DNA of 64,000 bases from Urechis unicinctus (taxonomy: Eukaryota; Annelida; Polychaeta; Xenopneusta; Urechidae), in the NCBI GenBank assembly GCA_034190875.2, contig CM067354.1:44835258-44899257 (forward strand), given 5' to 3'. The notes under the pieces were generated by a model. The model was not told the DNA's origin and did not search any database. It saw only the letters and a list, made by a program, of their open reading frames with translations. Position 1 is the stretch's first letter. Every line of letters begins with the position of its first letter. Made by a program: the position numbers and the translations under genes. Of this stretch, positions 12,973-58,750 are shown one piece after another.

Positions 12973-13088
12973 ATACGAAGTTTGACGCGCACAATCACCC
13001 ACAGGCCTTGCGTCAACAGTACTACAGGCGAAATCACTGGTTGATATGAGAGAGCGCCCAGCTAAAGCATAGGTATTGTTTCAAAAAT

Positions 13089-14222
13089 ATGGCAGAAGAA
13101 ACAACTCGTGATGAAGTCACCACAGGCAGTCTGACACAATCGGAAGGCATTACTGGTGTCAGCAACTCGTTATTTATCACTCGTCTACAATCAGTTACTC
13201 GCAACCTCAATTGGTATCTCGGGGTCATCATTCTTGTCATTGGCATATTTGGTAACCTTCTTTCTATCATGGTATTTCGCCGCCCTCTCATGCGTCGACT
13301 TCCGCTATCTAACTTTTTGACCTATTTGGCAGTGACCGATCTTCTGTTGGTCGTTTTCGGACATGGCATAAGCTCGTTTCCAGACTACACTGTGAATTTC
13401 GATGTTTTCTCTCTGACGCCATGGGCCTGCAAACTGTGGTATCTGGTAATTCCATCTCTTCGCACGCTATCATCTTTGATTGTTTCAGGCCTTTCAGTGG
13501 AACGCTGTGTGGCCATCAAAAGTCCTCTCAAGCTACTGACACACCAGGCGTGGGGGCGATGGGGGGCCCTCATTTTTGTAGGCTCTGTATTCATGGCGGC
13601 TCTGATCTATAATATCCATGCCTTTTTTGTATTTGACCTGCAAGACGACTTCCGCGACGGTCATTTGGTTCATCGTTGTAACCCTATCCATGGCACGAAC
13701 TTAGTTTTCGTGGCTTATATAAGACCAGTTGTATCGGTGGTAATAAACTGCTTGTTGCCATTTGCTGTTATCCTCATATGTAATATTCTCATTGCTGTTG
13801 AGCTTAGACGATCCACGGCTCTCATTGGTCCATTTCAAGGTCAATCGTATGGAAGAGACACCCGGTCTGTGCTTATTACACAATTGGTTGTAAGTTTTGT
13901 CTTTGTCCTTCTTAACATTCCTATCAATACGGCCATGATTCTCACCCGAATCTACCCAGCTGGATATTGGTGGAGCACCCCCAAGCTAGCTGCCAGCAGT
14001 GAATTCCTTTGGTCCTTTGCTCTCAACACCCTTTACTTGAACTCGGCGATCAACTTTTTCCTTTATGTTGTTAGTGGCAATGCTTACCGCCGAGAGCTGG
14101 CTCTGACCTTGTGTGGGCCATTCCGCTGCCATTCTTCGAAATATCTCGATAAGGAGACTTCTGAATTCAAATCTACTACTGGAAAATCAAGAATCACAGG
14201 AAATACGGAGGAATCTTGCTAA
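13089..14222 (+). CDS. Rhodopsin-like G protein-coupled receptor (orphan, peptide-receptor-like)
   Basis: A 377-residue single-exon receptor with seven hydrophobic segments (about 42-64, 75-95, 112-135, 156-175, 210-235, 261-285, 305-327). Class A landmarks are GN (55-56) in TM1, LAVTD (80-84) in TM2, Cys114 at the start of TM3 and its partner Cys197 in loop 2, Pro224 in TM5, Pro278 in TM6, and NSAINFFLY (318-326) in TM7 in place of NPxxY. The DRY box is ERC (138-140). This TM7 form followed by SGNAYRREL resembles invertebrate neuropeptide receptors of the FMRFamide/thyrotropin-releasing-type group; the ligand cannot be told. The short N-terminus has no signal peptide. The start is the first ATG, with stops upstream. 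Confidence 0.93.
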   Translation: MAEETTRDEVTTGSLTQSEGITGVSNSLFITRLQSVTRNLNWYLGVIILVIGIFGNLLSIMVFRRPLMRRLPLSNFLTYLAVTDLLLVVFGHGISSFPDYTVNFDVFSLTPWACKLWYLVIPSLRTLSSLIVSGLSVERCVAIKSPLKLLTHQAWGRWGALIFVGSVFMAALIYNIHAFFVFDLQDDFRDGHLVHRCNPIHGTNLVFVAYIRPVVSVVINCLLPFAVILICNILIAVELRRSTALIGPFQGQSYGRDTRSVLITQLVVSFVFVLLNIPINTAMILTRIYPAGYWWSTPKLAASSEFLWSFALNTLYLNSAINFFLYVVSGNAYRRELALTLCGPFRCHSSKYLDKETSEFKSTTGKSRITGNTEESC

Positions 14223-18589: not shown

Positions 18590-19774
18590 AATAAAATAAT
18601 TTAGTGCCAGAAAGAGCAACCTCGCCCCCTCTCACATAAAAAAGATGCCGGGATATTTAAAATCGCCAGCGTAATTAACGAAGAAGTATATCGATGGGTC
18701 CATTTAACAAAGATTTGATATATCGATGGTCCCATTTTTCTCACTTTTGGTTGCTCTAGATGTGTGTCAGGTTATTTGCCACATGGAGACTCATCCCCAC
18801 CCATTTGATGGGAGTGAACTTACCCCCCCCCCCCCCTCACCCCCACACAAACCCCGTGGGGAAGAGGCGGACTTGCAACGGATAATGCCCTTAGCTGCTT
18901 CGTTACGGGATGGAAGTGGTAGAATGAAGGCAAGGCACTCGCCCCTGGTGTTTTGATGATCTGATGCCACCTTAGGGGCGAGGGTCCGTATGGCAGAATC
19001 TTTAAGGATGTATACAAATATGCTCCCTCTCGCAATGCAGACAAGGGACAGTTAAAATAATATGCATTATCATATCCATAAATGTCGCATCATCAATCTT
19101 TCCTAGAGTGCAACAACAATCATACTCCTTAATCAACAGAATCAACGTTCCAGTGGGCGGATGTGAGAGATCGTAAGTAGTAAATAGCGCGGAGCTGTCA
19201 GAGGCGGAGTTTCTTTGCCTAGGTAGAATGTAGCTCTTTCGAACTAAGTACGGGAGTAATGCATGCACTCCCTCTTAGTGATAAATAGAACCTGACGTTG
19301 GTCCAAATATCTTGTTATAACAAGATCTTGGGTTGGTCTACTGGGCTAGTAGAATGCCGGTATCGGCTAGAGTGTCATAGTTTGATACGTAATTTGGCGG
19401 GCGTTTGCTGTAAACGAATTATTTGCTCAATATCCTATGTCACCGGGCAACAAAATCATCTGTTTTGTATTGATACTATCTTCTATCAATATTGACCGGT
19501 AAGAGCTCCAGAACGATTTGATTTATCTTGCAAATGACTGTCGAGATACATCGTTGCTTTGTGAGCGATAAAATAAGGTGTTGTCATTGACATTACTGGG
19601 ATCGGGTGTTATTTCCGGGTAACTCCACTTTCATTAGCGGAAATTAAGGCTTGCCTGTCAAGGTCTAAGCTAAGTTCCGGCTACTCAAAAACCCTTCTCG
19701 TCCCTAGCCCATCATCATCATGATATATTAAGACAAGCAAACCATCCTGTGGCACAAACCATCCACTGATGCAA
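18590..19774. other. 5' flank/intron of the LU-domain gene and non-coding DNA
   Basis: A signal-peptide exon for the LU gene is expected here or further up, but none is convincing. A C-rich run lies at 18822-18842. No other gene is supported. Confidence 0.35.
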
Positions 19775-19779
19775 TTATC
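19775..19779. other. Target-site duplication, left copy
   Basis: ATTAT directly abuts the left terminus; the same five bases follow the right terminus at 25350-25354. Confidence 0.7.
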
Positions 19780-19868
19780 AGGTTGGGGATCACCGCAGAT
19801 TGACGTGTCCCTTAATCGAAGGACGTACCTTGATCAACGTACGCCGTACTTCGATCGACGGTCGGACA
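19780..19868 (+). repeat. Left terminal inverted repeat
   Basis: About 88 bp matching the reverse complement of 25262-25349, with one 2-bp indel and a few substitutions. Inside it are iterated, partly palindromic motifs (CGTACCTTGATCAACGTACG, CCGTACTTCGATCGACGG) that look like repeated protein-binding sites. Confidence 0.9.
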
Positions 19869-20244
19869 AGATCAGTTCATCTATTCAGAGGGTGCTTTAG
19901 TTTATCTCCGTTATTTTTTCTTACAGCACATTTTATTGGTCAACCGTTATTTTGACTCCGTTCCGGACATATTTAGCTATATTTAGAATGCGAAATTCCC
20001 TACCTACGTCATTTTGGGAGTGCCCATCAGCTGGCGGTATGTCAACACACGAGATCATTTCCCGATTTTCGCGTCTTTGTTTCATCGTATCTTCTTTTCA
20101 TCAGACAGATGGGTATTGATTTTTGTTTCTCCCGATAGAATAATCATTCCTCTAGTGTTTCAAAGTAATTTAAATCAAATCGTATGTCCGCAACTTTAGA
20201 TAATTAGTAAATTGTAAGTATAGCTGTCGTGCAAATGTCGCCGT

Positions 20245-20290
20245 ACGTTAAACAAAGGACGATGGCGTACTTAAATCGAGGTCTGGTAAA
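20245..20290. repeat. Left subterminal repeat
   Basis: CGTACTTAAATCGAGG and neighbouring CGTACGTTAAACAAAGGACG resemble the motif units of the TIR (CGTAC-TT-ATCGA). A similar block lies near the other end at 24847-24895, so the element has paired subterminal motifs, possible accessory binding sites. Confidence 0.5.
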
Positions 20291-20427
20291 TAAGAGTCTC
20301 AACACTGTATTTGCTTCATTTGAGTTTTTTATTGACCAAATTCACACATGAAAAAAGTCTGTGCAATAATGAATAATATAATTGTGTTCTAGAACTAAAG
20401 TACAAATGCCAACACTGAACCAAGGAA

Positions 20428-23316
20428 ATGCCCTTCCAAAAACGCTGTGCTAGTGAAAAACTACATGAAAAGTGGGGAATTTCTTCCGTTGTAGGTCTAT
20501 CTGATTATGTAGCAGTACCTGTAACAAACAAACTGCTTACATTAGTACAGAAAACCCTGTGCAAAAATTATACCAAAAGTGCACCCAAATTTTGTCAAGC
20601 TTGTGTGACAAAAGTGGTAGAGCTTCACCCAGATTTGGATACCTCCAAGAGGAAAACACTCTCTCTATCAAGAGGGCTACATCCTGTGAAGGTTTTAAGA
20701 CTTGATATAGATGCAAAACAGTCCAGCTCTAAATGTGATGATGTGAATGAACCAACCCCTTCACTGCCTGGAGAAGAGAATGAACCAACCCCTTCACTGC
20801 CTCTAGAGAATGAACCAACCTCTTCACTGCCTGTAGAGAATGAACCAACCCCTTCACTGCCTGTAGAAGAGAATGAACCAACCCCTTCACTGCCTCTAGA
20901 GAATGAACCAACCCCTTCACTGCCTGTAGAGAATGAACCAACCCCTTCACTGCCTCTAGAGAATGAACCATCCCCTTCACTGCCTGTAGTAGGAGTGGAA
21001 GACAAATTTGATTTAGAAGGCCTCACCTCAACTGGAAAATGTGACCTTGCCTACCACCTGGGCAAGCTCGAGGGATATGCAGTGCGTAAGCATGCTTTAG
21101 CTTCAACCAGTAAAGATCTTGACCATCTACTATCAGTTGACATCAATGACGGAGCAGCAACAAATGGATCAAAGGTTCTAAGTGCATTTATATCTGGACT
21201 AAGTGGTGAATCCAAGGCACACACTCCATATCAACTCTCCAAAGCTGTGGAAAGCATTCAAAATCTGACAGCCCACAATTTGACACTGCCTTTGCACTTC
21301 AGAGAGTCTGTGTTATTGTATGCATTGACAGGAAGTAAATTGGCCCTTCATATTCTTGGAGCCGGTGGTGCACACGCATCATATAAAGCGGTCAAATCAT
21401 GGTTGTCTGGACTTGGGACTGAGTTGCGTGAGGTACCAGAGGGCGATATTTTACTAGCATTTGACAATAATCAGGTTCTTCAGCGTAGATGGAGGGTAAA
21501 GTTGAAGAATGAAGTAAAATGCAGTATAGTAACAATGGTTGCAATATTCAACATCAGTCAGGACAAACTACAGTATGAGGCCAAGTTCAAACCGTCTGAA
21601 TGGAGCCTCACTCAGTTGAATGACACTCAAATCCAATCACTAAAAATCATTGACAAAGATGAAAAAATAAAAAGTGACCATTATTCGCATCTGCACCAAT
21701 TCCTCCAAAACATTATTCAAGAAGTGAAAGAGGAACATGGAGAAGAAAGGACAGACTTTATCGACAAAAAGGTCGAGGCCGAAAACATATCAAAACTATA
21801 CAAACGCTGTTATAATTGCAACTTCGCTCAGGTGCCGAAACAGAAGAGAAGCTGTCCCGTTTGTAAGGTGGATGTCACTAAGAGCAAAATGAAGTCCATG
21901 GGCCTTACTGTAACTGGTGATGCCATCACTTATAATGAAGAAGTTGGTAAAGCCCTAGAGTTCAGGATGACCGTTGCTGAGGGAGCCAGCATGAGAAGCT
22001 CATATAGCTTACAGTATGAAACAAGGATGGGAGACAGCAGACAACAACAGCTAAGTAGTAGTGAACAGACTCATGCTCCTGTAAAACCAGCAAGTGTGCT
22101 GGTCAGAGAGCCAGTATATGTCAATCCATGCAGTTACGAAGCAGTGTGCATTGTCCTAAGGAATCTTGGTATGAAAGCAGGTATAAAACAGTATGGAGGT
22201 CAGCGTGAATGGGCCATTGTGGTCTGTGATGGCATTCCGTATTCACTTGGTAAGCGAGCTATTACATCAGCACACATTTGTCCATCATGCAAGGAATCAA
22301 TATATGGATTAGAGTCTTGTGAACAGCACAAAAATGATAAACATCAAGGAGAAAACATAGTGTTTTCCAAGGAATTTGATTGGGTTGTACTACAACCAGG
22401 CAATGGGCACATTGAAATGAATATGGTAAAAGGACTATTTGAATTAGGCTGGGATGTTGTATTGAAAAGTCTTGCCATCTGCATGAATTTCCGTTCAGAG
22501 AGTGCCTTACAAAACTGTAAAAAAGTGTCGGACCACCACAAAGGATGGACAATGTGTAGGATTGCTAGACAAGCATTAGCCAAAGAACTGGTTGTTCCTT
22601 TTGTTAGGGAAGAACTGACAAAAGAAAGCCCTGACATGTCTGTCTCGGGATTCATGAAGTTTGTCATGAAAGCTAAAGACCCAAACTATTCATTCATGGC
22701 TGACTTTACATTTGAATTGTTGGACAGCCTTTTTATGTTCAGAGAAGGTATACGCAGTGGAAATGTGGGGTACATTAAAGCTGGACGTGGGAAATTTGCG
22801 AAACTTTGGAGTGGAAGGACCCATCCTATATATCGCGAACTTGAGGTGGCCGATTCTTTGCTTCAAGAAAGAATGCCCCAGGAAATTAAGCACCTTATAC
22901 TTGCGTCAGGATCGCTCACCCTCAGTGGTGAGCCTCACACTGGGGAAGGAGCAGATTTCCGTTTAGAGGAAATTAACCGCCAGGTTCAGCACTGGCTGCC
23001 AAATATTCCTTCAGCGAATGACTGGAAAATTGCAAGTTGCAATTACAACAAGCTTGCAAACCTACGCACAAGTCTCTTTGAACAGATGGGCATTAAAGAT
23101 CCCAAAGACAACACCAGTAAAGTTCAGCAAGATGTTACAGAAGAAGTGACTGCATTCAGAATGAAGCTTAGGTCAGTTAACTATCTCCTCACACCATATG
23201 ACCCAAAACCACATGTATCTCTGGAAGGGGAATTAGTAGATGTGGACCTCCAGAATTTTTGTCAGTCAGCAAGAGAGAAAAGATCTAGATATGTTGAAGC
23301 CATTGCACACAGCTGA
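20428..23316 (+). CDS. Candidate transposase, ORF1 (962 residues, unassigned family)
   Basis: Starts at ATG 20428. Features: a basic N-terminus with C56-x2-C59; a repeat region (about 107-186) of the unit ENEPTPSLP; a predicted strand ILLAFDNNQ (D346); a zinc ribbon C461-x2-C464-x11-C476-x2-C479; a strand WAIVVCDG (D601); a second Cys/His cluster from C618-x2-C621 to H635/H639; then PGNGHIEMN (658-665), DHHKGW (702-707), FREGIR (771-776), and EGADFRLEEINRQ (840-852). The order strand-Asp, insertion, strand-Asp, zinc cluster, conserved His/Glu motif is compatible with an RNase H-fold transposase with a zinc insertion, but I cannot assign catalytic residues. It loosely resembles uncharacterised invertebrate proteins of DUF6589-like style; this is memory-based and uncertain. 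It reads into 23240-23635 after a frameshift. Confidence 0.7.
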   Translation: MPFQKRCASEKLHEKWGISSVVGLSDYVAVPVTNKLLTLVQKTLCKNYTKSAPKFCQACVTKVVELHPDLDTSKRKTLSLSRGLHPVKVLRLDIDAKQSSSKCDDVNEPTPSLPGEENEPTPSLPLENEPTSSLPVENEPTPSLPVEENEPTPSLPLENEPTPSLPVENEPTPSLPLENEPSPSLPVVGVEDKFDLEGLTSTGKCDLAYHLGKLEGYAVRKHALASTSKDLDHLLSVDINDGAATNGSKVLSAFISGLSGESKAHTPYQLSKAVESIQNLTAHNLTLPLHFRESVLLYALTGSKLALHILGAGGAHASYKAVKSWLSGLGTELREVPEGDILLAFDNNQVLQRRWRVKLKNEVKCSIVTMVAIFNISQDKLQYEAKFKPSEWSLTQLNDTQIQSLKIIDKDEKIKSDHYSHLHQFLQNIIQEVKEEHGEERTDFIDKKVEAENISKLYKRCYNCNFAQVPKQKRSCPVCKVDVTKSKMKSMGLTVTGDAITYNEEVGKALEFRMTVAEGASMRSSYSLQYETRMGDSRQQQLSSSEQTHAPVKPASVLVREPVYVNPCSYEAVCIVLRNLGMKAGIKQYGGQREWAIVVCDGIPYSLGKRAITSAHICPSCKESIYGLESCEQHKNDKHQGENIVFSKEFDWVVLQPGNGHIEMNMVKGLFELGWDVVLKSLAICMNFRSESALQNCKKVSDHHKGWTMCRIARQALAKELVVPFVREELTKESPDMSVSGFMKFVMKAKDPNYSFMADFTFELLDSLFMFREGIRSGNVGYIKAGRGKFAKLWSGRTHPIYRELEVADSLLQERMPQEIKHLILASGSLTLSGEPHTGEGADFRLEEINRQVQHWLPNIPSANDWKIASCNYNKLANLRTSLFEQMGIKDPKDNTSKVQQDVTEEVTAFRMKLRSVNYLLTPYDPKPHVSLEGELVDVDLQNFCQSAREKRSRYVEAIAHS
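20744..20996 (+). repeat. In-frame coding minisatellite (NEPTPSLP repeats)
   Basis: Eight copies of a 24-30 bp unit encode NEPTPSLP separated by PVE, PLE, PVEE or similar. Unit length varies only in multiples of three, so the reading frame is kept. Confidence 0.95.
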
Positions 23317-23635
23317 GCTATTCAAACCCCGGCCACCACACTTCAAGGAGCATCCTGTGTTCATAACAGAGCAGGAGCGTCAAAAGTTCACCTCTTTGGA
23401 AAACCAAACAATTCCAGAAATTAAACATATGATTGAAGAGGGTATACAACTGATGAATGACAATGAGGCAAGGGAGGCTTTAGCTTTGTACTGGAATGAT
23501 ATTAAACAATCAAGAAAGTCAGTTCTGTTGGATTTCTACAGAGAACTTATTGAATTTATAAATCAAGATACCATTAATATCAGTGATGATCAAGGATTAT
23601 TCTCACCTAATGCTGTGCAGGACTCACAAAAGTAG
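23240..23635 (+). CDS. ORF1 C-terminal continuation after a frameshift
   Basis: This frame overlaps the end of the 962-residue frame by 77 bp and continues 131 codons of well-behaved sequence (AELFKPRPPHFKEHPVFITE, then a helical, charged stretch). The main frame ends soon after entering the overlap, at AIAHS-stop. The natural reading is one protein of roughly 1060-1070 residues interrupted by a single one-base shift between about 23240 and 23313. It could be a mutation in this copy, a sequencing error or a programmed shift. The end overlaps ORF2 tail to tail by 46 bp. Confidence 0.65.
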   Translation: MWTSRIFVSQQERKDLDMLKPLHTAELFKPRPPHFKEHPVFITEQERQKFTSLENQTIPEIKHMIEEGIQLMNDNEAREALALYWNDIKQSRKSVLLDFYRELIEFINQDTINISDDQGLFSPNAVQDSQK

Positions 23636-24303
23636 TCCTTTGTGTCGACATCCTGCTCGCTCCAACCAATGCATTTTCTGTGCACCCATGTGTGGCAAAC
23701 TTCGGTGTTCTCACACCCCACCCATCTCCCAAACCTCTGTATGTCTCTCTTCTTATTGTAAAGCTGCCGACACACTCTACATGTGACCTCATCTTCTTCT
23801 TCAGTAGTTCCGACTACTATATCAATGACAGATGGCTCTTTGTCAAAGCCCAAGCTCCTCACCGCCTCTGCTGCCACTTCCCGACTACAGCCTGCAGCTT
23901 CTTCAGGCCTCGACTGTGTGGACGCGGATGGCTGACTCACAACAAAATTACAGTCCCCACCACCTTCCTTACTTGGTGTGGGGAACTCCACAGGGGCCAG
24001 ACAACCAACTTTACCTCTGTCATCGAGGCGATGCCCAGACTCAGTCTCCCTCGGCTTGATGCCTTCTCTGTTATATCGCTCCCATAGATCATCGTTTGAT
24101 GCATATGTCCAGATCTTGCCCTGATCATCGGAGTACTGCAGGAAAACCTCCCCACCACATCTTGTTACTAATTCATGTGCTTTAACACAGAGTGTCTTTT
24201 TCCTCTCATTACGCGTCTTCCTTCTTTCTGTCACATCCTTTATGTACTCCATTGGGATTTTCCCTACATGATGTTTCCATTTTGGGTTTCTGTGAATTAC
24301 CAA
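23590..24303 (-). CDS. MADS-box plus PHD-like finger protein, ORF2 of the TIR element
   Basis: A 237-codon open frame on the minus strand. Residues 15-69 align without gaps over 55 positions to the MADS domain of animal SRF: KIPMEYI, then ERRKT...ERK, KAHELVT, GGEVFLQ, GKIWTYAS. Residues 175-229 have a C4HC3 layout (C175, C178, C197, C203, H208, C211, C226, C229), as in PHD fingers. The linker is acidic and low complexity. The frame opens with TTG; the first ATG is inside the MADS domain, and a possible splice acceptor (GGTAATTCACAG) sits at 24289, so an upstream exon probably supplies the start. MADS domains bind DNA as dimers; PHD fingers often read histone tails. A role in element targeting or regulation is inference. 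Confidence 0.75.
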   Translation of the reverse strand: MVIHRNPKWKHHVGKIPMEYIKDVTERRKTRNERKKTLCVKAHELVTRCGGEVFLQYSDDQGKIWTYASNDDLWERYNREGIKPRETESGHRLDDRGKVGCLAPVEFPTPSKEGGGDCNFVVSQPSASTQSRPEEAAGCSREVAAEAVRSLGFDKEPSVIDIVVGTTEEEDEVTCRVCRQLYNKKRDIQRFGRWVGCENTEVCHTWVHRKCIGWSEQDVDTKDYFCESCTALGENNP

Positions 24304-24846
24304 GATATATGTTATTGTACCTATGTACTTGACCTAACTCACAACTTATTTAACTTCTACTCAATCACTACATAAGCATTTCATTCAAGTTATGTAACCA
24401 TTATGTGTAGATATATAGAAAGTTATTTCAGAAGTGGATACATAAAATCTTCAAGTATACTCACACATTTTTCCGCTTTAAAATGTGTCTGCTCCATAAC
24501 TAAGTATTTGATTGAAGACTTGGAAGTGAACTGAATTTAGTTCATGAAATAAAAGCATGCAGGTTGATAATCATTGTCTACAAAACCAGGGAAAACGCAA
24601 ACAGAACAAGGCACTCAAACTGCCAAACATGTTCATCTCAGCATGCAGATGAATTTGCAATACTGTAATTGTAACTTGAACGTTTTTGATCCAAAATACA
24701 TGCATGGATCACATCACTTACTGAGCAGGATTTTTGGGTGGCATTTTGCAGTTACAAGGAAAATATTCTGCATGAATAAATAAAAATAACAACAAAGATA
24801 TACAGTAACCAAGACAAACTTCCAAAATGCACAGCATTCATTTATT
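24304..24846. other. Region between ORF2 and the right end
   Basis: AT-rich DNA expected to contain the promoter and any 5' exon of ORF2 (minus strand). I cannot identify either with confidence. Confidence 0.3.
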
Positions 24847-24895
24847 TCATTCGTACTTAAATCAAGGGACGCAGCGTACGTCGATTGACGTCTGA
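24847..24895. repeat. Right subterminal repeat
   Basis: CGTACTTAAATCAAGGGACG and CGTACGTCGATTGACG repeat the TIR motif style and mirror the left subterminal block at 20245-20290. Confidence 0.5.
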
Positions 24896-25261
24896 CAGTG
24901 TTGACTCAACATGCTCAATTTTTAAAGTTGGTTTTCAAGCAAAGCGGACATACAATTTCAACAAAAACATTGTCAAACAATTAATTTCAATGTCAGTTAT
25001 TACCAGACACTTGAATTAACAGATAGGATGCAGGATGAGTGACGAATAAACGGGTTTAAACAGGGCAATGAGCTCGAACGTAGCAGCACACTTGACAGAA
25101 ATCAGCTGTTGGGGAAACTTTACGATGCAAGGGGGTCTATTTCCGGGAGCTAAATTTAGTTAATGATGTCATGAACCTATTAAAATGAACCCGAGATAAT
25201 ACAAATGTTTGCGAGTCATCGAAAATTAGATTATTCTCGGGCACCCCGTGCACATTGCAAC

Positions 25262-25349
25262 CGTCCGCCGATCGAAGTACGGCGTACGTTGATCAAGGTA
25301 CGTCCTTCGATTAAGGGACGTACGTCAATCTGCGGTGATCCCCGACCTG
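25262..25349 (-). repeat. Right terminal inverted repeat
   Basis: Reverse complement of the left TIR; ends ...GGGGATCCCC-like core shifted to CCCCGACCTG at 25341-25349, followed by ATTAT. Confidence 0.9.
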
Positions 25350-25395
25350 ATTATGTTCCAATTAAAGTGAAAAACCATTAATGAAATGTTCCAAG

Positions 25396-28576: not shown

Positions 28577-29710
28577 CCACCCCCTCTAGATTAGGTAGTA
28601 ATTTGTGTAAATGTTGACCAATTCATCATAGACTAGGAGCAGCCCTATGTTAGGTGGGAGACAACAGACAAATGGACAACTTATCTGAGATATAAATTAG
28701 ATAATTTTAACTACCTAAGACCTCAAGAATAAACTTACTGGCTTGGAAAAAAACCTCAACTGTTGATATCTGAGGCTATTTTCACACAACTTAAGTGGGA
28801 AGTATTTCAGACGTGACATGAAAGTTATGACCGCTCTTGATTTATGATAATGGTCACCAGTGAACAGTATACACTCGGCCAACATGATTGCAAGAGTGCT
28901 GTTGGTGCGCCACAGGAATATTAGTCTGGACCTGGGGAATCAACAGTTATGTCCCCAATTCGGTGATACAAAATATCTATCAGCCTGGATTAATAATTAT
29001 TATGAACAGAACACTGTTATACTCACGCCAAACTCTAGCCACGGGGGCACTTTCACGCTCAAAGAATTTTGAGTGACCAGACTTACTGCGGGCTTGATGG
29101 CCATACTGACCGTGGGAGATATTACCAGACTTGAGCACGGGCGATATTGCTGAACTTGACTGGGGGCGAGATTAGATGACTTGACCAGGGGCAAAGTGTG
29201 ACATTGCACATATGTTCAGTCTCATATTCAATTTCAAGCATTCTACAAGCAAAGATAAGACTACCCATATATTAGGACATGAATTATCTCACTTTTCCAT
29301 TTATTTCCCAACCCCCATTACTGGCAGACGACTTATTTATCTGCAGTCCAGCTGTGTATGCTTAATTGCAACCTCCCACTTGCAATGCATGTATAAGCCT
29401 CTCGTATCAAAAGCATTAGCAGAAGACAATGGCGATTGTCTGTTCCAGAAATATGTTTTTATTGACTTGTCTAAATCGAAATGGTCTGCTTACAAACTTT
29501 GTTGTTAATTTGGGGGAAAAAAGCAAGCTTTCTTTTGTATATACTAAGTTGTGAGATATGCCTGAATGATTCTTGCAAATATGAAATCATTCTCATTTGC
29601 TGCCTGAGCATTATCAGTCAGTGCTGGTCAGTCATCTGCGCTGATATGAAACACCATTGTAAGTCATGTACCTCTGTTTCGTTCAGTAATATATATTTGA
29701 TATCTTTCAG
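28577..29710. other. Non-coding region upstream of the kelch gene
   Basis: No coding exon recognised. It should contain the promoter and 5' exon(s) of the kelch gene because its coding exon starts at a splice acceptor. A short GC-richer block around 29080-29200 repeats the phrase GGGCGA/GGGGCGAGATTA irregularly. Confidence 0.35.
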
Positions 29711-29712
29711 AA

Positions 29713-30960
29713 ATGGAAAGAAAAGGTGGTAGAGGTGAGAAGAAACGGGCCAGGATGGGTGTTGAGAAAACACCTGACCATTCCCGGGCCAGACCCACCC
29801 CTAAGAAAGCCCGCCATTCCACCCGTGTTCGAGCTCTCAGGGATATCCTCAACGACTGTCCCTTGGAAGAGGTTGAACAGACGCCTGTGGTTGATGAAGA
29901 GAGGCAACAGCAGGAGAAGCATGAGAGAGTTGTTGTAGCTAACCAGAAGATGGTGATGGGGAGTTTGACTTTGATGGTCACCCCACAAACAGCACCCAGT
30001 GCCCGCTGGGGACACAGTCTCAGTATGCTGGCCGACGGGGAAGCCGTTATGATCGGGGGTCAGGGGGACAAACACATGTTCTGTAAAGACTCTATCTGGA
30101 TTATCAATGTCAATACGAATGGATGGAAGGCTCTCGAGACATCATCCGAGGGTCCTAAACCAGAGGCCAGAATGGGGCATACAGCCGTGTACGATCACAC
30201 GGTGCGCTGTGTGTATTTGTATGGGGGATCTAAGCTGAAGAAGTGGTACAGCGATATGCATGTTTTGGACACGGATGACTGGAAATGGACCATGGTCAAG
30301 GCGAGCGGCCGGGCACCCACACGCGCTTACCACACCTGTAACCTCTATCGACACGAGTTGTGGATCTTTGGCGGAGTTTTTCCCAACCCCGACCCTCAAC
30401 CCGACGGCTGTAGTAACAACATACAGGTATATAGCCCTATAGAAGAAAACTGGTACTCTCCAATTGTCATGGGTGACAAACCAACGGCGCGGTCGGGACA
30501 TTCCGCCACTCGTCTGGGGGATAAACTCGTCGTATTTGGTGGCTGGGATGCTCCACAGTGCTTCAACGACCTTCACATCCTCGACCTGTGTATCGTCGAG
30601 TGGTCACAACCAAATACACTAGGAGCGCCCCCATCTCCTCGCAGCTGGCATGGCGCATGCGTACTCACTGGCAACCGTATGCTGGTTTCTGGTGGATACA
30701 ATGGGAATAATGCCTTGAATGATTGCTTCATATTTAACATTGACACGCGATGCTGGACTGAGGTAGGCATCGAGCAGTCTCTGACCGCCCGAGCTGGACA
30801 CGCCGTGATGTACCAACCGTACAAACAGAAGAATGGCAAGCGAGATCAGGTCCTCGTCTTCGGGGGCGGCGATAATGAAGGGAAATTCTTCAAGGATCAG
30901 TTTACCATGATGATCCCCTTTGAGACGGACTCTGTCCTCAGTTTGTCGGCCTCTGTTTGA
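29713..30960 (+). CDS. Six-kelch-repeat protein (RABEPK-like architecture)
   Basis: A 415-residue protein from one coding exon. The ATG lies two bases after a good acceptor, ATATCTTTCAG|AA, so at least one upstream non-coding exon exists. Residues 1-45 are basic, with KKRAR and KKAR clusters that could direct nuclear import. Residues 95-400 form six kelch blades with the hallmark double Gly at 115, 171, 220, 276, 327 and 384, each followed by the conserved Trp about 25-30 residues later. A complete six-blade propeller suggests a protein-interaction scaffold. The overall layout recalls RABEPK and related kelch-only proteins, but the basic N-terminus is different, so no symbol is given. Confidence 0.9.
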   Translation: MERKGGRGEKKRARMGVEKTPDHSRARPTPKKARHSTRVRALRDILNDCPLEEVEQTPVVDEERQQQEKHERVVVANQKMVMGSLTLMVTPQTAPSARWGHSLSMLADGEAVMIGGQGDKHMFCKDSIWIINVNTNGWKALETSSEGPKPEARMGHTAVYDHTVRCVYLYGGSKLKKWYSDMHVLDTDDWKWTMVKASGRAPTRAYHTCNLYRHELWIFGGVFPNPDPQPDGCSNNIQVYSPIEENWYSPIVMGDKPTARSGHSATRLGDKLVVFGGWDAPQCFNDLHILDLCIVEWSQPNTLGAPPSPRSWHGACVLTGNRMLVSGGYNGNNALNDCFIFNIDTRCWTEVGIEQSLTARAGHAVMYQPYKQKNGKRDQVLVFGGGDNEGKFFKDQFTMMIPFETDSVLSLSASV

Positions 30961-32412: not shown

Positions 32413-33640
32413 TTATGCATAAATCAGTTTATCTGGAGGTCTATCAGTTCGACCCGAACGTGTAATGACTGGCTCTGTTGGTGATGGAGTTTTGGCCTTT
32501 TCAGCTGGAGTTGACTGTAGAATTGATTTAGTCGGACCGGTCAGTTGACTGGCAAATAATAGGCTGTCTGGTGCAGAGTTTGGAATAGTTATAGGGGTCA
32601 AACTCAAAGATGGAGCTTTAGAACTGCGTAAATATTGTCTGTTGCGTTTGAATATTTTCCCAGCAGGCGTGGTCACTTCGTATGTCCGGTGACCTAGATC
32701 TTTCGACACTGTTGCTGGGAGCCATTCACGCTTTCCTGATTCTATGGGTTGCATCCTCACATTATCTCTTATGTGAAGCGGTGTCAGCACTCTGCGATCA
32801 TCGTAGCGGTGAGACATCATGGCTTTCCGATCATCTTGAAGAGACCTAGTTTCCATGTGGCCACTTGTTGGGGTAAGCAGTTTTGAGTTCATGGGAATGT
32901 CACCTCTGGTACGGCGACCAAAGAGTCTCTGAACAGGGCTCGATTCCACGCCTTCAGTTGGCGTGTTACGGTGATTAAGCAATCCTAAGTATGGATCATC
33001 CCCTGATCTTTTGCATTTAAGCATCAACCGCTTGGCAATCTTGACTGCGGCTTCAGCGGCACCGTTTGCCCTGCTGTTACCAGGAGCTGATGTGACGCGC
33101 TTGAATCCCCACTTCTGAGCGAAGATCTTGAATTTCGACGAGGTGTATTGAGTTCCATTGTCGCTCACAAGCACATCTGGGATACCATGTCTGGCAAACT
33201 GCATTTTTATTTTGGTTATAACAATTTCAGATGTAATATCTGGTAGATAGTCAAGTTCGAAGAATTTGCTATAGTAGTCCACCGAGATGAGGTATTTTCG
33301 ACCTTCTACTTCGAAAATGTCCGTCCCAACCTTTTGCCAAGGTCTGTCAGGTACTTCGTGAACCATCAATGGCTCAGGTGCTTGCTGGTCTGGCATTGAG
33401 GCACAAGTGTCACTGCATTCGATTAACTGGCGGATTTCTGCCGGCATGCCTGGCCAGAACACTAGCTCGCGTGCACGGCACAAGCAAGAGTTTATTCCCA
33501 TATGTCCAGTATGCAGGCGCTGCTTAATGTCCTTGCAGAGTGTCATTGGAATCACAATGCGTTCCCCTCGAAATACAATTCCATCCTGGAGGGAGAATTC
33601 ATCTCTGTGATGGTAGTATGGAACAAGGTTTTTCTGCAGT
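32413..33640 (-). pseudogene. Integrase of the Ty3 element
   Basis: The frame is open from about 33640 to 32413; numbering here starts at the in-frame GTG at 33555. An HHCC zinc domain (H15, H18, C48, C51) is followed by the catalytic core with D79 (GTDIFE), D132 (SDNGTQY) and E168 (NGAAEAAVK), the D-D-35-E spacing of retroviral-type integrases. The C-terminal ~150 residues are basic and proline/serine rich, with a RYDDRR...VRMQPI...YEVTTPAGKIFKRN stretch typical of the chromatin/DNA-binding tail. The domain itself looks intact, but a one-base shift in an A-rich run at about 33640 separates it from RNase H. Confidence 0.88.
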
Positions 33641-33648
33641 TTTTCTTT

Positions 33649-34250
33649 TTATGGCCATACACACAGGATCACAGTGATGAGGTCCTGAAGAGTCGAATCA
33701 CGAGATGTGTGATCTCGGATTGTAGCCAGTTTCTCTGGGCTAATTGGCACATAAGTCAACATGTTTACATCACATGGCTCATGCTTAGGACATTCTGAGA
33801 ATGGAGCTCGAGATAGAGTGTCAGGGAGTACCATATCTGCTCCTGGCTTATACAACAGATATACATCGTATCTGCTTATTATTTTCATCATCATGAGCTG
33901 CAGACGTTTTGGGATGTCTCTCAAGGGCTTCTTCCACAAGGAGCTGAGAGGTTTGTGGTCGTTTTCAATGATCACTGGACGACCGTAAGTATACTGGTCG
34001 AAATGTTCGAGACCGTAGATTACACTGAGACATTCCTTTTCAATCTGCGCAAAGTTCTTTTCGGCAGGTGTCATAGTTCTCGAAGCGTACGCGATCGGCA
34101 CGTCTTCTTGTAGCAAGACTGCTCCAAGACCGTGACTTGAGGCATCAGTTTGTAGCGCTAATGGAGCTCTCTCGGATCATAGTGTCTCAAAAGAGGAGCT
34201 TCACATGTCATCTTCTTGATCTGACAAAATGCATCGTCATGGACTTTGCT
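33649..34250 (-). pseudogene. RNase H domain of the Ty3 element
   Basis: The frame 34116-33649 contains YASRTMTPAEKNFAQIEKEC, then TYGRPVIIENDHKPL and ADMVLPDTLSRAP, the canonical Ty3 RNase H sequence. It is joined upstream to RT through a frame break and stop between 34116 and 34251, and downstream to integrase by another shift near 33640. Confidence 0.85.
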
Positions 34251-35075
34251 TCACTCGAATTTCGCATCTTTATGAGTGAGCTCTCGCAGAGGAGTAGCAA
34301 CTTCTGATAGGTGAGGAAGAAAACGCGAGAGGTATTGTACAGTGCCACAAAAACGGCGTACTCCAGATGCATCCTGAGGCTTAGGCATATCCTGAATGGC
34401 CTTTCCCTTTGAAGGATCTGCTTTTATTCCATTTGGAGAAAACACATGACCATGTAGGGTCATCTCTGATGTACGTAGCTGGAATTTGTCTGGTGACTTG
34501 TTGAGCTTTATACCTTTGGCTCGGCATGTTTGTAAGAGGTTTTCCAGTTGGCTATCATGATGGGCATCGTCTTTGCCCATCAGAGCGATGTCATCAGCGA
34601 TGCAAGTGACACCAGGCACAGACTCTAGTACTTGCGCTATGTGTCGCTGGAAGATTTCGCCAGAGACGCTTAATCCAAAAGGTACTCGAAGCCAACGGAA
34701 TCTGCCCCATGGGGTGATCATACATGTCAGGAGACTAGAATCATCTTCAAGTTCCAGATGCCAGTAAGCGCTGGTAACGTCCAGCTTGGAGAATACTTTG
34801 GAGTCACTAAATTTATCGAGAATATCATCCACTACAGGCAGTTGGTAGTGCTCCCTCATGAGGGCCTGATTCAGAGGACCAGGATCTATACAGATCCTCA
34901 CCTGTCCTTTCTTCTTTCTGGCGATCGCCATCTGGCTGACCCATTCAGTTGGTTCATCAACTGGCGCCAATACACCGAATTCGACAAGTCGCTGTAATTC
35001 CGCTCTCACCTCGTCTTGGATCGCGAACGGAATTAGCCTTGCAGGTAAGACTCTAGATCTATTGTCTGGTTTCAT
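34251..35075 (-). pseudogene. Reverse transcriptase of the Ty3 element
   Basis: A 274-codon frame with RT motifs in order: VRICIDPGPLNQAL, KLDVTSAYWHLEL (97-109), VPFGLSVSGEIFQ (131-143), CIADDIALMG with the catalytic Asp pair at 161-162, LHGHVFSPNGIKADPSK, and the thumb RRFCGTVQYLSRFLPH. IADD replaces the commoner YxDD. It overlaps the protease frame by 17 bp in another frame, so a shift is needed to make a polyprotein. It uses element RNA as template inside virus-like particles. Confidence 0.92.
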
Positions 35076-35463
35076 GTAACGTGACTTTTCCAGGTAGCTT
35101 TCCTAGCTCCCCATCGAATACATCAGCATACTTCGTCGTGATGTCTTCTACACTGAGTGAAGAGATGTTAAAACTGTGACTGTTCACTGAAATTAAGTTC
35201 ATATCCAGGAGAGTTTCTATACCAAGAAGACATGTGTAGCCTTTAGGCATGACAGTATAAGTCACATGGTGAGTTGTGTTGGTAGCTACATTTAAGACAT
35301 CGGTTGTAACTTCGCCAATTGGAATACACTTTTCTCCAACCCAAGCCTGGAGACGACGTGTGCAAGGCTTGATGTTGCAGGGATCTAGGTATTCACTTGT
35401 GATAATGTTGGTTTCTGCCCCACTGTCAAGTTGGAAGCCTATCTCATGAGAGTTAACAACCAT
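35059..35463 (-). pseudogene. Aspartic protease of the Ty3 element
   Basis: 134 codons with FQLDSGAETNIIT, the retropepsin active site in DSGA form, and later CLLGIETLLDMNLI. It directly follows the zinc knuckles and ends at LPGKVTLHETRQ just inside the RT frame. Confidence 0.85.
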
Positions 35464-36367
35464 TATTGCAAAAAGCCTCCGGCCATTGGACTTGAGAGAT
35501 CCAATCCAATGTCCGTCATCTGAATTCTCTGGATCGACAACCAGTGAGTGGACTTTTCCATCTCTAGACTGATGGAAACTCTTGAACGAGGTACCACACT
35601 TGAGTGCGAAGTGGTTCTTGTTGCCACACTTCCGGCAGGCTTTGCCCCAGGCAGGGCACTGTTCCTTGTCGCGAGGATGACTTTGACCACAAAACTTACA
35701 ATGGCTGAGAATTTGTGGCCTAGACTGAGATGGCCAAGGTTTTCGAGAGACTACACCTTTTGATGTGGCATATCATTGAGGTAGTTTCGACTTTATGGCC
35801 TGGACTTTCTCTGTTACTTACTCGGCCTCCCTGGACATTTTCTTCATTTGGTGCTTTGAATACTCGAAATTCCTTGCAGTTTTTATTGCACTGTCTAGTG
35901 AGTTGTGCACCCTCATTCAGCAATTTCTCCCTGATTGACTTTGAATTTGTCCCAAATACGATTCTGTCCCTGATCATTTCATTGGAATTTGAAAAGGCAC
36001 ATTCCTTCGCCTGCATTCGGAGATCAGTAACGAAGTCTTCTATCCCTTCCTCAGGGCCTTGTGTTCTGCAGTGAAATTTATATCTTGCAAACACGGGATT
36101 CGCAGTCGGAGTCACATGATTTTTGAATTTTGTGTACAATGTTGTTAGGGACTTTTTCTCTACATTTGTTAGTGTCCAAGTATTGTAGATATCTCTCCCT
36201 CTCTCACCTGACCACAGTAAGAGGTACTTGCATTTTACCGCTTCTGGCTTATCGGCTAATGGGCCGTCGAAGACAAGTTCCGCGTGCTTGTGGAATCGTT
36301 TCCACGCATCTGGCGAATTTAAAGAGTCCCAATTCATGCAGGGAAACTGTAACCCTAGACCTTCCAT
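35464..36367 (-). pseudogene. Gag of the Ty3 element, frameshifted
   Basis: ATG at 36367 opens a capsid-like frame (WKRFHKHAELVFDG, GRDIYNTWTL, EEGIEDFVTDLR) that ends out of frame at 35720. The nucleocapsid region appears in another frame: two zinc knuckles, CKFCGQSHPRDKEQC and CRKCGNKNHFALKC, at about 35705-35600. At least one shift lies near 35720-35760. Confidence 0.85.
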
Positions 36368-36586
36368 AATGACAATTCAATTTGACAGATTGAGCAGAGG
36401 TGTTTCAGAACCGGCAGTCTGTATACTACTAGACAAGAATACACGTGCAGCCGCTGAGTGATAATGGAGAAGATTGATTCCGCGCAAAGACAAAGACATA
36501 CGTTCAAACGATGTCGAGAGGAATAGAGTGAAATATTGTTCTTACAAATTGCTCTATAGTGAGCATGTACTCAAGTACAGGTTCTT

Positions 36587-57075: not shown

Positions 57076-58028
57076 AGACACGGATTGAGCCGGGATGAGA
57101 GGAAGGGACTGAGACAGAAAGAGTTGCAAAGACACTGCAGTGACTTGAGACAGGGGTGAGGCGAAGTTGCAAGGAGTAGTGGTTGGGGCCGTGGGGTTAA
57201 AGAGCAGCGTTGGAGTGAGGTTTAGTCGTGACGAGTGGTAGAGTTGAATTACGCTTGTAGACGTGGTAGGTGTGGAGTGGGGGAGTGGCGAGAGAAACAG
57301 GCTGACATAAAGGAATGAAACAGGATTTTAGAAAGGGAGCTAGTATAAGCATGAGTTTGAGGGAGAGGTACTCGAGGAAGACAGAAGAACATATTTCCTT
57401 CAGTATTGATTCCAGGAAAAGTGAGCACTGTCATAGATGTGTCATAGAGACCAACGTCTCAGCCGAGAACTTCCAAGAATGCCCTAAATGAAAACTATGC
57501 CACCTCAGTGCTTTTATTGACAGGTATAAAAAACTGAGTATTCGGTTTTCAACAAATCCTCAAATTCAAGGGTCGTCATCGAGGCCTCATTGTCATGACC
57601 CTGGTGTGATGTCGGTAACGCCCTTTGTGGCAATTTCACTCACATCGACACTTGTCTGTGCCCCCAATGACATCTTGATGAGTCTAGAAATACAAAGCTA
57701 AGGCGTTCAGTAGTTGTGAATGCGGAGCTTCTGCAAGGGTCGGCTGATTCGGATATGGTGGAGAATTTGTTATTCCACCGTGACCATCACTGGATTGGAA
57801 TGAGCAACCCAAGCAGATTTTATTGATGACCTTCAATGCAGAAGTAGGATCAACTGTGATGAAGGGCCGCAGTGTCTATTGTGTCTGGTGTGGTAGGCTG
57901 CTCGCACCCAGGCGGAGTGTAGCCATTAACTGGGAGCGTTTGGGTGCTTCGGTTGGAAGCCAGTCAGCCAAACATGTGGCATGCCAAACGTATCATTTGG
58001 AAGTAGAAGTTTCCTTGCTATGAGTGGG
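57076..58028. other. Non-coding region
   Basis: No supported gene. Confidence 0.4.
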
Positions 58029-58750
58029 CTGGAGATACCTAGCCAGGTCAGGTCTTGGGTTGGGGATACCTAGCCTGGTCAGGTCTTGGGTTGGGGATAC
58101 CTAGCCTGGTCAGGACTTGGGTTGGGGATACCTAGCCTGGTCAGGTCGGGGGATACCTAGCCTGGTCAGGACTTGGGTTGGGGATACCTAGCCTGGTCAG
58201 GTCGGGGGATACCTAGCCTGGTCAGGTCTTGGGTTGGATGATACCTAGCCAGGTAAGGTCGAGGGATACCTAGTCAGGTCAGGGCTTGGGTTGGATGGTA
58301 CCTAACCACGGCAGGTCGGGGGATACCTAGTCAGATCGGGTCGCAAGTTGGGAATACCTAGCCAGGTCAGGTCGGGGGATACCTAGTCAGGTCAGGTATT
58401 GGGTTGGATGATACATAGCCAGGTCAGGTCTTGGGTTGGATGATACCTAGTCAGGTCAGGTCTTGGGTTGGATGATACCTAGCCAGGTCAGGTCGGGGGA
58501 TACCTAGTCAGGTCAGGTCTTGGGTTGGATGGTACCTAACCACGGCAGGTCGGGGGATACCTAGTCAGATCGGGTCGCAAGTTGGGAATACCTAGCCAGG
58601 TCAGGTCGTGTACTGGGTGATACCTACCCAGGTCAGGTTGCAGGTTGGGAATACCTAGCCAGGTCAGGTCGCAAGTTGGGAATACCTAGCCAGGTCAGGT
58701 CGTGTATTGGGTGATACCTACCCAGGTCAGGTTACAGGTTGGGAATAAAT
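58029..58750. repeat. ~25-33 bp minisatellite, about 24 copies
   Basis: Unit GGATACCTAGCCTGGTCAGG plus TC and a variable tail (TTGGGTTG, GGG, GCAAGTTGG). Higher-order duplication is visible: 58303-58350 and 58531-58600 share the same run of variants. Confidence 0.95.

Follow-up and report, generated by a model that had tools for sequence, protein, structure and literature searches.

A probable two-gene DNA transposon lineage with a co-inherited MADS-PHD gene, represented by a decayed copy in Urechis unicinctus

A 64,000-nucleotide stretch of the genome of the annelid Urechis unicinctus (GenBank assembly GCA_034190875.2, contig CM067354.1, positions 44,835,258 to 44,899,257 of the forward strand; hereafter the window) contains a 5,571-bp element at window positions 19779-25349. 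The element has terminal inverted repeats (TIRs), a perfect 5-bp target-site duplication and two convergent genes, one encoding a transposase-like protein and the other a protein in which a MADS domain is joined to a PHD finger. It is probably a decayed member of an undescribed cut-and-paste DNA transposon lineage that carries two genes, the MADS-PHD gene being an accessory inherited together with the transposase. A preliminary description of this DNA knew of no described transposon family with such cargo, and the literature on DUF6589, on MADS/SRF-TF domains in transposons and on superfamilies with 5-bp duplications, in the portions available to us and with Repbase and Dfam outside the scope of the search, likewise yielded no such element. 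A match to a known superfamily with known cargo, which would have spoken against the description, was not found in Pfam, the PDB or the same literature.

The boundaries of the element can be read directly from the window sequence. On the left the repeat ATTAT (19774-19778) abuts CAGGTTGGGG, and on the right CCCCGACCTG, which ends at 25349, abuts the second ATTAT (25350-25354). The left TIR, which starts CAGGTTGGGGATCACCGCAGATT, occupies 19779-19865 on the + strand and is supported by the sequence, a repeat search, an alignment and a genome-wide TIR probe; the right TIR, ending in CCCCGACCTG, occupies 25261-25349 on the - strand and is supported by the first three of these. In the repeat search the pair measure 87 and 89 bp at 94% identity with termini CAGGT...ACCTG, and the alignment within the window covers 83 bp at 95% (E 4e-31). 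The TIR is therefore not a product of chance, an explanation that we reject both on this alignment and on the recurrence of the TIR at other places in the genome. The preliminary description had the right end correct and set the left end at 19780, one base inside the true terminal base; its estimate of about 88 bp for the TIRs, its perfect 5-bp duplication and its two convergent genes (ORF1 on the + strand and ORF2 on the - strand, from the reading of open reading frames, ORFs) all agree with the measurements given here.

Related copies are present throughout the 1.19 Gb of genome searched. The protein of ORF1 has at least 71 matches, grouped into 45 places (hereafter transposase places; 47 of 2,853 first-look candidates were scored). 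A 92-bp probe of the window TIR was scored at 40 of 212 candidates, two of which are the element's own ends; the 38 other places lie at 91-94% identity, so the TIRs are not confined to the window. Both ends were sought in 21 copies, the window copy included, and a perfect 5-bp duplication accompanies both ends in nine of the 11 copies in which both were located. These nine copies fall into four lineages and comprise the window copy (ATTAT), copies at C7:10.34 Mb (TTTAA), C10:32.51 Mb (ATAAA), C12:7.417 Mb (ATAAC), C2:4.98 Mb (GTAAT), C15:30.44 Mb (GATAA) and C12:81.72 Mb (ACATT), and derivatives at C17:70.55 Mb (AAAAT) and C1:58.04 Mb (TCTAC). Eight of them start with CAGGT and the most divergent one with CAGTC. 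At C7:32.33 Mb four of the five bases of the duplication match, the copy at C7:42.54 Mb has decayed ends and unequal flanks, that at C15:48.49 Mb has lost its right end, and L032 and L048 show a single end. One or both ends were not found at C13:18.88, C17:30.26, C17:61.14, C16:42.78, C10:66.1, C13:2.09, C5:5.68, C14:31.7 and C17:56.4 Mb, and these copies do not count as support.

Near-identity among some copies points to recent mobility. The element at C7:10.34 Mb (the C7 element) is 6,785 bp long with perfect 72-bp TIRs, and its transposase and MADS-PHD frames are both open. It is 99.5% identical to the C10 copy over the whole length and 99.1-99.4% identical to three further copies over the 5.0-5.1 kb compared; recent movement of this lineage is indicated because the five copies are 99.1-99.5% identical where compared. 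The derivatives at C17:70.55 and C1:58.04 Mb, read in part, are 96.7% alike over 781 bp. In both, roughly 600 bp at the left end remain and are followed by sequence matching the window from about 24271, just past ORF2; with their right ends they span about 1.7 kb and are therefore internally deleted. In the near-identity and derivative comparisons, as in the MEF2/CArG and CGTAC comparisons below, the window element was taken to 25344, 5 bp short of its end.

The two genes recur together across these copies. A MADS/PHD match is listed within 6 kb downstream at 23 of the 45 transposase places, all 23 on the opposite strand, and the one upstream match near a transposase place belongs to a neighbouring place. 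A genome search with the Pfam SRF-TF model gave 22 matches over the cut-off; when the coordinates are compared by reading, 13 of them follow a transposase place and face it from the other strand. This search adds eight paired places and a PHD ORF beside L023 adds one, giving 32 of 45 places with a convergent MADS and/or PHD match or ORF, some of them paired through MADS or PHD alone and several of the copies containing stops. The further copies that the preliminary description had proposed looking for, with the same TIRs, 5-bp duplications and both ORFs, are thus present on each of these counts. The MADS-PHD protein itself has 153 genome matches, and 115 of the 150 listed lie away from the 45 transposase places. 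Some of these are elements reduced to their MADS part: at C12:7417197-7419346 a MADS frame without a transposase is flanked by the duplication ATAAC. A 102-aa MADS frame without a transposase is also kept at L079, L080 and further places in the same list, L079 having CAGGT ends and a perfect 5-bp duplication.

Divergence of the two genes is correlated. Across six lineages the pairwise identities of the transposase and of the MADS-PHD protein give r = 0.86, a value reached by 6 of 720 permutations, and a nine-copy Mantel test, in which three close pairs and some partial frames are included, gives r = 0.92, reached by 0 of 5,000 permutations. Ratios of nonsynonymous to synonymous differences (pN/pS) in three comparisons with the window copy are nearly equal for the two genes, at 0.29/0.31, 0.36/0.32 and 0.50/0.51 for transposase/MADS-PHD. 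When one pair is split by domain, identity is 72% in the MADS part and 65% in the PHD part, against 40% in the linker. These data bear on the explanation that the second gene is a host gene caught by one copy and carried as a passenger without a role. MADS and PHD are eukaryotic host domains, and a far stronger SRF-TF match at C13:9693087 (75 bits) is presumably a host gene. Against it stand the same position and orientation of the second gene at 32 of 45 transposase places, its divergence in step with the transposase, and the conservation of MADS and PHD relative to the fast linker in the pair just described. A passenger gene without a role is thus extremely improbable, and capture by a single copy is rejected on the genome-wide pairing and the co-divergence; the preliminary description had named a host-derived second ORF absent from other copies as evidence against itself, and this is not what the genome contains.

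ORF1 (20428-23316, + strand) encodes a transposase-like protein of 962 aa, defined by ORF reading, Pfam and alignments of relatives. A 30-bp in-frame tandem repeat of eight copies (NEPTPSLPVE) lies inside it at 20745-20989 on the + strand. ORF1 ends early in the window copy, and the aligned relatives are about 100 aa longer; the corresponding C-terminal tail of about 100 aa sits in another frame (23240-23635, + strand, from ORF reading and alignments), indicating one frameshift near 23,300, owing to which the window copy is probably dead. In Pfam at E up to 1, where HMMER drops most matches above about 0.1, the window protein matches DUF6589 and a double zinc ribbon and nothing else. DUF6589 is matched at E up to 0.01 by 10 of 14 transposase family members (best 8.6e-7). 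The genome has 70 listed matches to this Pfam family, all of them away from the 45 transposase places. Sequence comparison thus suggests that the first protein is at most distantly related to DUF6589. The preliminary description had found no superfamily that it could name for the large protein; the lack of a superfamily match stands, and the sub-threshold similarity to DUF6589 is to be added.

In a true DUF6589 protein of this genome (35.5 bits), visual comparison shows the motifs TGSK, FDN, D and PGTFHIEM (PGxxHIEM) in the order that they have in the transposase. D346 (21463-21465), D601 (22228-22230) and E663 (22414-22416), all on the + strand, form a candidate catalytic triad because they are conserved and resemble in their motifs this true DUF6589 protein; the three residues are conserved across the family alignment, with D601 missing from the gapped member P0007. 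We infer that the first protein is a DDE transposase with this triad. Most family members also have a C2H2-type zinc motif, C618xxC621 followed by H634-x4-H639, between D601 and E663. Searches of protein collections returned seven relatives at first and ten with a 14-member profile, eleven distinct altogether; the closest named one is from the annelid Capitella teleta, and another bears an ill-fitting JGI label (pilus assembly). Viral relatives were considered and rejected, as none of 15 pattern matches was confirmed.

ORF2 (23590-24252, - strand) encodes 220 aa from its first in-frame Met, as established by ORF reading, Pfam and comparison of copies. The MADS (SRF-TF) domain comprises residues 3-50 (24103-24246, - strand; Pfam and profile search) and the PHD finger residues 158-212 (23617-23781, - strand), with the ordinary PHD zinc spacing Cx2Cx18Cx5Cx4Hx2Cx14Cx2C. 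Both fall just below the Pfam cut-offs in the window copy, at 25.9 bits against 26 for SRF-TF and 23.2 bits against 24 for PHD. The SRF-TF cut-off is passed by two of seven accessory proteins, both from divergent copies (33.5 and 33.0 bits); the others score 18.1 and 13.7 bits or, in three cases, give no match, one of these having been submitted without its MADS part. A profile of the seven MADS regions matches SRF (E 9.7e-8), MCM1 (4.5e-7) and MEF2D (9.8e-7) in the PDB. By sequence comparison the MADS assignment is firm, and the preliminary reading of a MADS domain joined to a PHD-like finger is upheld. The frame is open upstream of the first Met to 24333 and contains the motif PKWKHHVGKIP, variant forms of which occur in other copies, directly preceded by an acceptor-like TTCACAG. 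Since the frame extends upstream with a shared motif and this predicted acceptor, the MADS-PHD gene likely has a short first exon. The copy at C13:18877694-18879586 (L041/L045) has a 631-codon frame in which the MADS-to-PHD linker is expanded to a long proline-rich tandem repeat.

Candidate binding sites near the ends of the element are best regarded as leads. A motif scan places MEF2-type boxes CTATATTTAG at 19977-19986, 198 bp from the left end, and CTAAATTTAG at 25150-25159, 190 bp from the right end. Two boxes are found against 0.24 expected, a count reached by 1.3% of shuffles; this is one test among 20, four motif types having been scanned in each of five elements. Among the full elements scanned, boxes near both ends occur in the window element only; a single box is present in the C2 element, towards the right end, and the two deleted derivatives of the window clade retain the left box. 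Across the five elements and four motif types, a general association of the MADS protein with CArG or MEF2 sites is not supported. Clusters of CGTAC-type words, the left one with TIR-like words, lie at 20239-20282 (word count) and 24852-24880 (repeat search and word count). The two 600-bp ends of the window element contain 16 CGTAC/GTACG words against 1.9 expected and a maximum of 6 in 200 shuffles, for a word picked after the sequence was read. The same words number 10 at C12:7.417 Mb (shuffle maximum 7) and 7 at C13:2.09 Mb (maximum 5), merely tie with the shuffles at C17:30.26 Mb (5), and are missing from the C7 and C2 elements.

The role of the MADS-PHD protein may lie in end binding, chromatin targeting or self-regulation. 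In the mechanism that we propose, the transposase would bind the TIR ends, excise the element and join it to target cuts staggered by 5 bp. The MADS-PHD protein would dimerise, with its MADS domain binding the ends or an internal promoter, and its PHD finger would dock on histone H3 tails, tying transposition or expression to accessible chromatin. By analogy, the layout could work as in a RAG-like transposon, where a transposase and a convergent PHD-bearing partner are combined with CA..TG termini and 5-bp duplications. The boldest form of this analogy, in which the element is an independently evolved second RAG-type recombinase, and a new superfamily, with a DUF6589-related transposase and an obligate, end-binding, H3-reading MADS-PHD subunit, so that animal transposons would have acquired this layout on two occasions, we regard as unlikely.

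Alternatively, the MADS-PHD protein could be a self-regulator outside the transposition reaction, acting as an activator or repressor of its own promoter or as an anti-silencing factor. In its favour, MADS proteins act as transcription factors and PHD fingers are chromatin readers, the window element has MEF2-type boxes at 198 and 190 bp from its ends, a count reached by 1.3% of shuffles, and the element at C12:7417197-7419346 moved with a MADS frame and without a transposase. The last point does not decide the matter, because a transposase-less element can move in trans. The box statistic is one of 20 tests and does not extend to the C7, C10 and C12 elements, and the PHD-bearing partner of RAG assists DNA binding and cleavage in the portions of PMC7204232 available to us, which makes a direct part in the reaction possible. 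Self-regulation is accordingly a serious contender, to which we give rather less than an even chance.

The affiliation of the transposase admits two further alternatives. Its lineage could have split off deep within the CMCT clade (CACTA/EnSpm-Mirage-Chapaev-Transib), perhaps close to Transib, as the CAGGT..ACCTG termini, the 5-bp duplication and the zinc motif that most members have between D601 and E663 would suggest. Pfam and the PDB include RAG1; nevertheless, at E up to 1 the Pfam matches of the window protein are limited to DUF6589 and the double zinc ribbon, and the family profile searched against the PDB at E up to 10 returned ten chance-like matches (best 0.11), none of them a transposase. 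One DUF6589 protein of this genome lacks, by eye, the zinc motif at that place, and the motif may therefore be a separate insertion. We consider membership of CMCT improbable. Nor do we expect that the element belongs to a known superfamily under another name, such as an hAT lineage with 5-bp duplications or a Repbase entry outside the libraries searched. Termini of the CAG..CTG type are known in hAT elements. A lineage with 5-bp duplications, hAT5, exists as described in the available portions of PMC12730594. However, no hAT (including the hAT dimerisation domain), BED or KDZ model matches the window protein in Pfam at E up to 1 or the 14 family members at 0.01, and Zisupton, of the KDZ/Zisupton group, makes 8-bp duplications (PMC12730594, same portions) against 5 bp here.

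Several observations weigh against the interpretation that the element belongs to a two-gene lineage with a co-inherited MADS-PHD accessory. No MADS/PHD match accompanies 13 of the 45 transposase places. The four places of the most divergent group, at 31-32% identity, are all among these, and since one of the four has a perfect 5-bp duplication, MADS-PHD may be dispensable for movement in some lineages. Outside this genome, relatives of the transposase are known as proteins alone, and a database search with the MADS-PHD protein returned no relatives from other sources. A fourth pN/pS pair (transposase 0.45, MADS-PHD 0.65) is looser on MADS-PHD, and synonymous sites are saturated in all of the pairs, the three given above included. 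MEF2-type boxes were not found by motif scan in the C7, C10 and C12 elements. The identity of the transposase is also affected: the window protein matches DUF6589 (PF20231) at E 7e-5 and 22.1 bits, under the cut-off of 27; its profile, compared with that of a single true DUF6589 protein, aligns over 38 columns around TGSK, before FDN, at E 0.0036 and a probability of only 9%; and two AlphaFold models of the transposase are poor (mean pLDDT 47.7 and 46.5). The most divergent group has, downstream of the transposase and on its strand, an ORF (L078, C2:4986818-4987354) that contains FPSPQK, which resembles the PTPTK linker motif of MADS-PHD; a MADS domain in this ORF is not claimed (profile comparison at 1.4% probability, no Pfam match). 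Taken with the evidence above, a decayed copy of a two-gene lineage with a co-inherited accessory is the interpretation that we retain.

Other features of the window lie outside the element. A tandem array of 31/57-bp units containing CCAGGTCAGGTC at 58025-58732 has short chance matches to the element's CAGGT end. ORFs at 32413-36376 (- strand) with, by eye, a CCHC zinc knuckle, reverse transcriptase and integrase are like those of a Ty3/Gypsy-type retroelement. A 419-aa frame at 29701-30960 (+ strand) has kelch-like repeats by eye and is perhaps a host gene, and a 390-aa frame at 13050-14222 (+ strand) resembles by eye a seven-helix receptor.

The MADS-box proteins known so far are transcription factors of their hosts. 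In the present case a MADS domain fused to a PHD finger has been inherited over the long term with a mobile element lineage, as an accessory gene of a new kind. Should transposition require the partner, the element would offer a second division of labour of the RAG1-RAG2 type, making it possible to ask why a PHD subunit helps cut-and-paste. It would also suggest that DUF6589, whose function is unknown and which is not named in the portions of the literature available to us, is a transposase family. The likeness to DUF6589 (PF20231) consists of the weak profile match (7e-5; best member 8.6e-7) and the order of TGSK, FDN, D and PGxxHIEM by eye; the differences are that the window protein stays under the cut-off, that no listed genome match falls at the 45 places, and that an extra C2H2-type zinc motif is present.

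Comparison with described transposons, in the portions of the cited sources available to us, places the element beside several systems. Members of the CMCT clade have CA..TG termini, duplications of 2-5 bp, and C2C and H3-4H motifs between the second D and the E (PMC12730594); the element shares such termini and a duplication within this range, and most members of its family have a C2C and H4H pattern in the corresponding interval of the candidate triad. It differs in that no sequence similarity was found, in its compact zinc motif, with 12 residues between C2C and H4H, and in its MADS-PHD cargo, of which the CMCT descriptions in PMC12730594 make no mention in those portions. Transposons with chromatin-related cargo, including TET/JBP in fungal transposons and SET methyltransferases, likewise carry eukaryotic chromatin- or DNA-regulating genes (PMC12730594), but in some of these groups the cargo has moved between superfamilies, whereas MADS-PHD co-diverges with its transposase.

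As read from its sequence, the layout of the element is that of RAG-like animal transposons, with no protein kinship found. In the latter, RAG1L and RAG2L are convergent, duplications are 5 bp and a PHD finger ends RAG2L (PMC7204232; PMC4411706), and the RAG-like (RAGL/ProtoRAG) elements, the source of RAG1-RAG2, thus share with the present one a transposase with a convergent PHD-ending partner, 5-bp duplications and termini starting with CA (PMC7204232). The first protein here, in contrast, shows no similarity to RAG1 or Transib, either in Pfam (E up to 1) or, with the family profile, in the PDB (E up to 10), and the partner has a MADS domain and no kelch match, where RAG2L has a kelch propeller. 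The PHD spacing begins Cx2C here and Cx4-7C in invertebrate RAG2L, and the termini are CAGGT, not CACTW, with no CAC... start like the heptamer of a recombination signal sequence in the nine copies with perfect duplications. With SRF, MCM1 and MEF2 the second protein shares the MADS domain, aligned to SRF over 56 profile positions (E 9.7e-8); unlike in these proteins, the domain is here fused to a PHD finger and a PTPTK-type linker motif and is encoded by a mobile element.
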